Positions 30,541-32,834 of a stretch of DNA of 45,753 bases are shown here, one piece after another. The stretch's first letter is position 1. The number at the start of each line of letters is the position of its first letter. Below the pieces are notes generated by a model. That model was given only the letters and a program-made list of their open reading frames with translations, ran no database searches and had not been told where the DNA came from. Position numbers and translations under genes: made by a program. This DNA comes from Acidimicrobiia bacterium (GTDB lineage: Bacteria > Actinomycetota > Acidimicrobiia > Spongiisociales > UBA5794): NCBI GenBank assembly GCA_030066265.1, contig JASJCF010000004.1:1-45753 (forward strand), given 5' to 3'.

Positions 30541-31158
30541 ATGCACGTGCGGGACCTCATGACCACGGACGTGGTCGCCGTCGCCCCGACGACGTCGACT
30601 CGCGATGCCGCACGCATGATGTTCCGCTATCGCATCTCCGGGCTGCCGGTGGTCGACGCCGAAGATCACGTCCTGGGAATCATCACCGAGGGTGACTTCC
30701 TCGCCATGGAACTCGAGCGTGTGGACCAGGGAGACGGCCCGAAGCTCGTCGGCGATGTGATGTCGCATTCCGTGCTCGCCGTCTCACCCGACCTCGAGGT
30801 GATGGAGGCTGCCCGCTACATGCACTCACACGGTGTGAAGCGCGTCCTCGTGATCGAAGAGGGGAAGATGGTCGGGATCCTCTCGCGTTTCGACATCGTC
30901 GCCGCCTTCACGAGACCCGACGATCTGATCGAGGACGAGATACGCGAGGACCTGATTCGGCGCGTGCTGTTCGTGGATCCCGAGACGGTCGATGTCCGGG
31001 TGTCCAACGGCGTCGTGACGCTCGTCGGCACCATCGGGACGCGCACCGAGGCTCGGCTGGTCGAGGAGCTGGCTGTTCGCCTGGACGGCGTCGTCGGAGT
31101 GGAGAATCGCCTTGGATGGCGTATCGACGACACGGGGTCCGATGCCGACGAGGCGTGA
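30541..31158 (+). CDS. CBS-pair domain protein with C-terminal BON domain
   Basis: MHVRDLMTTDVVAVAPTTSTRDAARMMFRYRISGLPVVDAEDHVLGIITEGDFL...HGVKRVLVIEEGKMVGILSRFDIV... then BON-like VDVRVSNGVVTLVGTIGTRTEARLVEELAVRLDGVVGVENRL. Confidence 0.9.
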   Translation: MHVRDLMTTDVVAVAPTTSTRDAARMMFRYRISGLPVVDAEDHVLGIITEGDFLAMELERVDQGDGPKLVGDVMSHSVLAVSPDLEVMEAARYMHSHGVKRVLVIEEGKMVGILSRFDIVAAFTRPDDLIEDEIREDLIRRVLFVDPETVDVRVSNGVVTLVGTIGTRTEARLVEELAVRLDGVVGVENRLGWRIDDTGSDADEA

Positions 31159-31951
31159 GGGACATGGGGGCCTCCCCATCGCCCTCGACGGCACGACGGA
31201 GCGCGATCCAGAGTTCCTCTACGCCCACGCAAATGGTTTCTGCAAGGAGCTGTGGCGACCGGTCGCCCATCACGTCGGCGGTTCCCGATCGTGGTGGTCC
31301 ATGGATCTGCGCGGTCACGGCGACACGGGCGGTGGGTCCTTCCCGTATGGCTGGCACGTCCTCGCACTCGACATCCTCGCGGTGCTCGGCGACACCCGCG
31401 ATGTGGTGGGTGTCGGTCACTCGATGGGGGCTGCATCGCTGGCACGAGCCGAGATCCTGGAGCCAGGGACGTTCCGTCACCTCGTCCTGATCGAGCCCAT
31501 CTTGTTCCCGCCACCGCACGGCCGTACGAACATCCCGCTCGCCGACCTCGCCCAGCATCGGCGCTCGGTGTTCCCCGATCGCGATGCGACGCATCGGAGG
31601 TTCTCCCGAGGCGGGCCGTATGCGGCATGGGATCCCTTCGTCCTCGATCTCTACGTCGACCACGCATGGGGACCCGGGCCCGAAGGGTGGGAGATCAAGT
31701 GTGGCCCCGCCGTCGAGGCCGACTACTACCGAGAGGGCAACAACGTCGATACGTGGGATCGGCTGCCAGAGATCCAAGCGCCGGTGACGCTCGTTGCGGG
31801 TTCCGAGTCGGACACTCACACCGGTGAGTATCTACATGCGCTCGAGCGCAGATTCGCTGCGGTCGATCTCGTGGTGGTGGAGGACCACGGACATCTCGTG
31901 CCGATGGAATCGCCGCGATCCATCGCCGAGATCATCGACCGAGTGGCGTGA
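31142..31951 (+). CDS. Alpha/beta hydrolase
   Basis: YAHANGFCKELWRPV...VVGVGHSMGAASLARAE (nucleophile elbow GHSMGA)...VEDHGHLVPMESP (catalytic His region). Confidence 0.88.
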   Translation: MPTRREGHGGLPIALDGTTERDPEFLYAHANGFCKELWRPVAHHVGGSRSWWSMDLRGHGDTGGGSFPYGWHVLALDILAVLGDTRDVVGVGHSMGAASLARAEILEPGTFRHLVLIEPILFPPPHGRTNIPLADLAQHRRSVFPDRDATHRRFSRGGPYAAWDPFVLDLYVDHAWGPGPEGWEIKCGPAVEADYYREGNNVDTWDRLPEIQAPVTLVAGSESDTHTGEYLHALERRFAAVDLVVVEDHGHLVPMESPRSIAEIIDRVA

Positions 31952-31956
31952 TCATG

Positions 31957-32142
31957 CGCATCGGCCGAAGCTGGATGTGCATGACCCGCTGACGAGCCCG
32001 GAGGGCTCGTCCAACGGATCGACCGAAGGTCGATGCGCAAGGTCCATGCGTAATCCGCGGACCAATCCGCAGGATTGGTCAACGCATCGGCCGAAGGCCG
32101 ATGCGCGGGCTCGTCCAACGGATCGACCGAGGGTCGATCCGC
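31957..32142. repeat. Array of short hairpin-forming palindromes (9-10 bp arms, GNR triloops)
   Basis: GACGAGCCC-gga-GGGCTCGTC (31991-32011), GGATCGACC-gaa-GGTCGATGC (32016-32036), GACCAATCC-gca-GGATTGGTC (32060-32080), GCATCGGCC-gaa-GGCCGATGC (32084-32104), GGATCGACC-gag-GGTCGATCC (32120-32140), and a degenerate copy near 31957-31980. Confidence 0.9.
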
Positions 32143-32186
32143 AGGAATACCGGGGCCGCACATCCGGTTTCCGCCTCCGGACCCTC

Positions 32187-32834
32187 ATGACGAGCAGCAT
32201 TCCCGACCGCATCCCCGACCTGATCGAGCAGCAGCGCCGAAGTCCATCCGGCATCGTCGCTTCGTTGGCGCCGAGCATCGGCTTCCTGGCCGCCAACAAC
32301 TGGTTCGGGCTGGTTGCCGGCATGGTGGCGGCGACCGTGCTCTCGGCTGCGTTGATTGCGATCCGCCGAGGTCGAGGCCAGGCGGTGGGCTGGCTCCTCC
32401 CGATCTCACTCGGGTACGTCATGGTGCGTGGCGTCGCCGGGGTGATGACCGGGTCTGAGAACGTGTTCTTCGGTTTCGGCGTCGCCACGAGCGCGGCCGT
32501 CGCCGTAGCCGTGGGCGTGTCCGCGTTCACACGACATCCGATCGCCGGATACCTGCTGCCGCTGGTCGTGCGCTATCGCCACCTCTCGATGGATCACCCG
32601 CTCTATCGCCGAGTCGCCGCACAGATCACCGTCGTATGGGCCATCGCTGAGCTGGCGTTGACGACGTGGGAGGCGTGGCATCTGAGCAACGTCACCGGCG
32701 CGCAGTTCCTGATCGATCGAACGCTCATCGGCTGGCCGGTGATGGCGGTCGTCATCTTCCTCCTCATCTTCTACGTCCGCTTCCGGCTCGACCCGCACGA
32801 GCGCCACCTGGCGTCGATGCCACAGACGGCGTAG
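32187..32834 (+). CDS. DUF3159 family integral membrane protein
   Basis: SIGFLAANNWFGLVAGMVAATVLSAALIAIRRGRGQAVGWLLPISLGYVMVRGVAGVMTGSENVFFGFG...; several TM helices. The longer ORF in the track runs through the non-coding hairpin array. Confidence 0.75.
   Translation: MTSSIPDRIPDLIEQQRRSPSGIVASLAPSIGFLAANNWFGLVAGMVAATVLSAALIAIRRGRGQAVGWLLPISLGYVMVRGVAGVMTGSENVFFGFGVATSAAVAVAVGVSAFTRHPIAGYLLPLVVRYRHLSMDHPLYRRVAAQITVVWAIAELALTTWEAWHLSNVTGAQFLIDRTLIGWPVMAVVIFLLIFYVRFRLDPHERHLASMPQTA

Follow-up and report, generated by a model that had tools for sequence, protein, structure and literature searches.

A bipartite palindromic repeat, probably REP-like, arrayed in tandem behind a hydrolase gene and dispersed at gene 3′ ends in an uncultured Acidimicrobiia-like group

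An intergenic array of hairpins in an Acidimicrobiia bacterium is probably built from tandem copies (three to four, of which two are complete) of a REP-like, non-autonomous, bipartite palindromic repeat that is dispersed at gene 3′ ends. The best reading of the element is a REP-type palindromic repeat that is new to this uncultured Acidimicrobiia-like group. It joins two different hairpins in one unit, occurs in multiple dispersed copies, is restricted to one family and its order, and has been duplicated in tandem. The window (the whole stretch of DNA analyzed, 45,753 nt) holds the array between an alpha/beta hydrolase gene and a DUF3159 gene, antisense to both. Such an element would add a REP-like repeat family to an uncultured actinobacterial family, and would offer a test case both for the spread of palindromic repeats without a RAYT and for stems that change sequence while remaining complementary.

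The array contains triloop palindromes at 31991–32141, four with perfect arms of 9–10 bp and one with a single mismatch. A sequence-only reading had described these five together with a degenerate sixth hairpin and a shared core (NCC-GNR-GGN), and both descriptions are correct. On the minus strand, the array begins with a hairpin Ha (GGATCGACC-ctc), half of a hairpin Hb, and a complete pair (Ha GCATCGGCC-ttc, TT, Hb GACCAATCC-tgc) followed by a spacer; after the spacer come a second complete pair (Ha GCATCGACC-ttc, GTTG, Hb GACGAGCCC-tcc) and a degenerate Ha. Read in this direction, two same-orientation hairpins joined by TT(G) thus form one unit, a doublet, and the array consists of two full doublets, one truncated and one degenerate copy in tandem. 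The features are as follows:

31115–31951, plus strand: alpha/beta hydrolase gene, the upstream flank, syntenic in relatives (locus comparison).
31952–31984, minus strand: degenerate sixth hairpin, resembling Ha, with a ttc core as read on the minus strand, adjoining the hydrolase stop codon 3′ (fold and sequence).
31991–32011, minus strand: H1, the Hb of doublet 2; GACGAGCCC-gga on the plus strand, GACGAGCCC-tcc-GGGCTCGTC on the minus strand (perfect arms; held-out covariance model match).
32003–32039, plus strand: copy 1 of a 37-nt direct duplication, with copy 2 at 32107–32143 (95% identity).
32012–32015, minus strand: linker of doublet 2, GTTG on the minus strand (sequence; held-out covariance model).
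32016–32036, minus strand: H2, the Ha of doublet 2, with one arm mismatch; GGATCGACC-gaa-GGTCGATGC on the plus strand, GCATCGACC-ttc-GGTCGATCC on the minus strand (palindrome scan and held-out model).
32037–32059, minus strand: spacer between doublets, resembling by eye only the spacers of arrays elsewhere in the own genome (CGCGGATTACGC.. against GGCGGATCTTGC..).
32060–32080, minus strand: H3, the Hb of doublet 1; GACCAATCC-gca on the plus strand, GACCAATCC-tgc-GGATTGGTC on the minus strand (perfect arms; held-out model).
32081–32082, minus strand: linker of doublet 1, TT on the minus strand (sequence).
32083–32105, minus strand: H4, the Ha of doublet 1; CGCATCGGCC-gaa on the plus strand, CGCATCGGCC-ttc-GGCCGATGCG on the minus strand (perfect arms; held-out model).
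32107–32115, minus strand: half-hairpin, one arm of H1, the truncated Hb of a third doublet (sequence, duplication and held-out model).
32119–32141, minus strand: H5, the Ha of the truncated doublet; CGGATCGACC-gag on the plus strand, CGGATCGACC-ctc-GGTCGATCCG on the minus strand (perfect arms; held-out model).
32187–32834, plus strand: DUF3159 gene, the downstream flank, absent from the same place in relatives (locus comparison).

A doublet measures about 45 nt and is followed by a spacer of 12–23 nt. Both of its loops are TNC on the minus strand (GNR on the plus strand), one loop being ctc. The arms had been taken as unrelated to one another; they do differ, but they fall into two classes (GSATCGRCC in H2, H4 and H5; GACNANYCC in H1 and H3), H2 and H5 share GGATCGACC, and the 37-nt stretch is duplicated. 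Likewise, the AAC-type linker noticed earlier is real, but it is the complement of the minus-strand TT(G) that joins hairpins of the same orientation. Perfect hairpins with 9-bp arms and a 3-nt loop are expected 0.65 times in the 45.7-kb window according to a Markov-1 simulation (about 0.002 per 150 bp), whereas five were found, four of them within 150 bp, and a chance origin of these four is therefore excluded. The array region folds with −121.9 kcal/mol (z −7.9); with the parameters used, DNA folding energies are equal for both strands. Rfam covariance models gave no match in 31700–32400 at E up to 1, in keeping with the earlier statement that no named family was recognized, and literature searches returned no description of the doublet element. 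The repeat had no match among phages and a single weak one, from Nocardia, among plasmids.

The dispersal of the unit was examined with a single-hairpin model (R1), a doublet covariance model (R2) and a doublet model built without the window sequence (R3), which miss single-hairpin copies and strongly diverged doublets. Since the arms vary, R1 matches in the own genome outside the array were weak or coding, and the doublet model was needed. A three-core pattern search returned mostly coding low-complexity repeats, and in the majority of genomes its yield did not clearly exceed that of a reversed-pattern control. In the window, R3 gave three adjacent minus-strand matches (E 9.5e-5, 1.1e-4 and 0.0045) that are exactly the array, all other matches having E of 1 or worse. 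Among the R3 matches in 1 Mb sampled from the own genome, those of the window rank just below the doublets on contigs C41, C136, C22 and C126, three of these four loci having belonged to the R3 training set; together with the window array, these contigs place the unit at a minimum of five loci of the own genome. At the E-value cut used, R2 found doublets in 21 of 50 family genomes, with up to 29 matches each (G027, 29; G012 and G018, 13; G013 and G070, 9; G024, 8; own genome, 5). In a phylum control of 298 genomes at E up to 0.001, less sensitive because only 21 candidates were scored per genome, matches were confined to the own genome and to a single further genome, which belongs to the same order. 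The latter match (G043, L367 1490–1550), from another family of that order, has a TTG linker and lies directly 3′ of a TAG that resembles a gene's stop. The genomes used are mostly draft assemblies, with gene calls from the author's own script.

From 1.66 Mb of the own genome and three relatives, triloop palindromes whose perfect arms reach 9 bp or more were also collected. Sixty-three of 73 were intergenic, compared with an intergenic share of DNA of about 8–14% (author's gene caller), and GNA or TNC loops were present in 39 of the 63 but in only 3 of the 10 inside genes. Many of these palindromes are paired as doublets with a TT-type linker. The sequence-only reading had suggested a palindromic repeat family and had named the lack of similar hairpins elsewhere in the genome as the finding that would speak against it; similar hairpins were found, and many such pairs occur in the genome and the family, nearly all intergenic. 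A patch of palindromes arisen by chance, or a duplication that is only local and in decay, would agree with the 37-nt internal duplication and with one mismatched and one degenerate hairpin, but its probability is negligible given a chance value of about 1e-12 and the same architecture at many other loci. It was rejected on the doublets in the family genomes and on the recovery of the array by the held-out R3. In G066 (C232, L348 1000–1260), about five 58-nt doublet units stand in tandem, and the upstream gene's stop codon apparently lies inside the first Ha.

Copies associate directionally with tRNA 3′ ends and abut stop codons. When 105 distinct copies were placed relative to gene calls and ARAGORN tRNAs, only two lay inside genes. 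Twenty-three of the 24 copies adjoining an upstream tRNA are on its strand, and for 14 of the 24 the start lies between −5 and +2 nt relative to the end of the tRNA; the tRNAs concerned include those for Ala, Phe, Ser, Leu, Ile, Tyr, Glu and Met, among others. Among 76 copies with an upstream CDS, the distance from a same-strand stop to the copy's start is −5 to +4 nt in 12 (p about 1e-5) and 5–24 nt in none, whereas random intergenic placement puts 1.6% within 4 nt of a stop; placement p-values serve as guides only, because the loci sampled were those that matched best and the copies of one genome are related to each other. Divergent gaps are avoided (8 of 60 copies against 31% of the space) and convergent gaps favored (20 of 60 against 16%). 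Where the flanking genes are codirectional, 23 of 32 units run antisense to them, as the array does in the window. Truncated tRNA-Ala 3′ ends lie directly 5′ of some doublets, away from a full tRNA (L082/L202 on G024 C21, L086 and L088). In another family of the order (G049, L026 1501–2287), a doublet shares a stretch of 800 nt with a tRNA-Tyr and a DUF3159 gene, a second instance of DUF3159 close to the repeat.

This placement bears on a reading in which the doublets are RNA 3′-end structures selected by the host, that is, tandem terminators or exonuclease barriers in which Ha plus TT would be an intrinsic terminator lacking a long U-tract, Hb a back-up, and the arms would covary through selection on the RNA stem. 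The tight same-strand position behind tRNAs and stop codons, the depletion of divergent regions, the stable folds and the hairpins that also lie 3′ of other tRNAs in these genomes would all suit it. Ha is followed only by TT and Hb by nothing, however, so the U-tract of an intrinsic terminator is absent, and the unit is antisense both in the window and in most codirectional gaps. Near-identical doublets are dispersed within G027, G-T pairs are few, most tRNA-Ala orthologues are without a doublet, and, with the cut used, doublets are present in no more than 21 of the 50 family genomes. On this balance, the RNA reading appears rather unlikely. Actinobacteria have tandem intrinsic terminators, GC-rich hairpins in series directly 3′ of genes; the doublet shares this serial GC-rich arrangement but belongs to a dispersed repeat family, is often antisense to its neighboring gene and has no U-tract. 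At one own-genome locus (L163 on C23), a terminator-like hairpin stands behind tRNA-Thr, and the heptanucleotide CAGTTTT is repeated in tandem after it.

The exact abutment on tRNA 3′ ends in a single orientation, and the pseudo-tRNA 3′ fragments ahead of some doublets, could also point to a folded recombination or integration site, either resembling attC or serving as the attachment side for elements whose integration targets tRNA 3′ ends. This is improbable, as many copies lie away from tRNAs, gene cassettes between copies were not seen, and an unsystematic look found no linked integrase. Integron attC arrays have folded sites with gene cassettes between them and an IntI; the arrayed copies here are closely spaced with no genes between them. 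Double-hairpin elements exist in organelle genomes, and resemble the doublet in that two adjoining hairpins are dispersed as a unit in intergenic DNA; going by their description, those elements would differ in being organellar and unrelated in sequence.

Sites occupied in one genus and empty in another are consistent with a dispersing REP-like repeat. At the tRNA-Ala locus, a thiolase gene lies about 20–50 nt downstream in most family genomes inspected, including the same-genus G001, which represents the empty site. In the own genome, a tandem, partly decayed array begins at the tRNA end and the same thiolase follows, and G026 carries one doublet there; the comparison is between species, and loss in single lineages may have contributed. 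At the window locus, relatives have the order CBS-BON, hydrolase, MenF, MenD with a hydrolase–MenF gap of 30–80 nt, and no doublet was present in this gap in the relatives examined. In the own genome, the array and the DUF3159 gene (about 0.9 kb) occupy it. Among the relatives checked, DUF3159 (32187–32834) lies between hydrolase and MenF in the own genome only, and the gene was probably acquired.

Covariation in the seed alignment arises by construction, since the seeds were chosen as palindromes, and it was not used as evidence. Instead, for copies picked by the linker and Hb alone, a well-paired Ha (score at least 7) abuts the linker in 11 of 22, compared with 2.5% of controls. Within one genome, Hb is constant while the Ha arms differ yet pair perfectly; in G070, for instance, the arms CGGGATTAC, CGGGCTCG, CGTAGCGGC, CGGGCTTTC and CCTGTCGGC each have their own complement. 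Between the two tandem copies at the own tRNA-Phe locus, two base pairs of Ha have been exchanged as a whole (GGACTCCCC against GGGCTTCCC). The compensatory changes proposed earlier are thus seen at this locus and in G070, but uncompensated decay is found in other copies (own tRNA-Ala array and G066 copies) and G-T pairs are few. Internal pairs, in a sample partly selected for pairing, comprise 844 Watson-Crick, 9 G-T, 4 A-C and 4 others. Within the limits of that selection, the scarcity of G-T pairs favors matching of the arms at the DNA level over selection on RNA.

Like REP, BIME and REPIN elements, the doublet is built of 20–40 nt, short-loop palindromes that are multicopy, intergenic and 3′ of genes; its copy number is modest (5 in the own genome, up to 29 elsewhere). 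As in REPs, stems change in a complementary way between members and TAG stops lie beside copies; a GTAG-like tag is shared in part. Two REP superfamilies, GTAG and CGTC, have been described; TAG stops lie beside GTAG REPs, CGTC REPs are without a dedicated transposase, and REP dimers are usually head-to-head, while the main text of the same paper does not mention Actinobacteria and reports no REP-like family in them (PMC3733652). The doublet differs in its fixed pairing of two unlike hairpins, head to tail, across a TT(G) linker, in its TNC loops, in its hypervariable Ha and constant Hb, in its abutment on tRNA 3′ ends, in its partial tag and in lacking a RAYT. REPs of these superfamilies carry a conserved unpaired tag, GTAG or CGTC, at one end. 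In the doublet, upstream of Ha and among copies that are related within a genome, GTAG occurs at −8/−7 in 10 of 91 and GYMG at −8/−7/−4 in 41 of 91; a GTAG-like tag is absent from the window array.

A canonical REP or REPIN mobilized by a RAYT would account for short palindromes at gene ends, for GTAG or GYMG enriched just 5′ of Ha and for TAG stops beside copies, as beside GTAG REPs (PMC3733652). The RAYT-like transposase that the sequence-only reading proposed to look for was not found: Y1_Tnp (PF01797) had no match in the own genome, which is about 91% complete, and was absent from 48 of 50 family genomes (present in 2), although the same search finds that of E. coli. Most copies, the window array included, are without the tag, and the head-to-tail heterodimer stands against the usual head-to-head dimers (PMC3733652). 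With no RAYT, no constant tag and no inverted pair folding into one larger hairpin such as REPINs and BIMEs have (both doublet hairpins share one orientation), the doublet is not filed as a RAYT REP, and this alternative is highly improbable.

The preferred account is of a REP-like, non-autonomous element that would multiply as it moves, or is copied, to the ends of genes, its probable form in transit being folded single-stranded DNA; tandem duplication would follow its arrival. Both its mobility and the existence of an enzyme that moves it are inferred; a moving copy was not seen, and the search identified no transposase, Y1_Tnp being absent from the own and most family genomes. The arms may be kept matched mainly at the DNA level, one arm being copied from the other (quasi-palindrome correction), which fits the rapid change of Ha arms with almost only Watson-Crick pairs; alternatively, an enzyme that binds the hairpin might select for matched arms. 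Where transcribed, the stacked hairpins could act as a 3′-end barrier (a terminator or an exonuclease block), ending or protecting transcripts, and such a role would explain why copies behind genes are tolerated or kept; it would provide a 3′-end signal for genomes poor in U-tract terminators. A more specific proposal is an element class whose insertions fall precisely on gene 3′ ends, those of protein genes as well as those of tRNA genes, the latter in a single orientation. One hairpin would be constant and serve for recognition, the other would be rewritten at the DNA level while staying perfectly self-complementary, and an enzyme other than a RAYT would move the element. This proposal is tentative, and insertion of this kind, if true, would represent a new targeting mechanism.

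Another palindromic repeat of composite build is dispersed in the own genome. It combines TCTCCCCC(GGC)-nnn-(GCC)GGGGGAGA with two further hairpins, TGTCCGC-gaa-GCGGACA and TCTCTCCC, and lies at L110 8283–8584, L114 135–159, L116 9518–9633, L165 25–312 and L222 4074–4298 and 7244–7382, frequently at contig ends.
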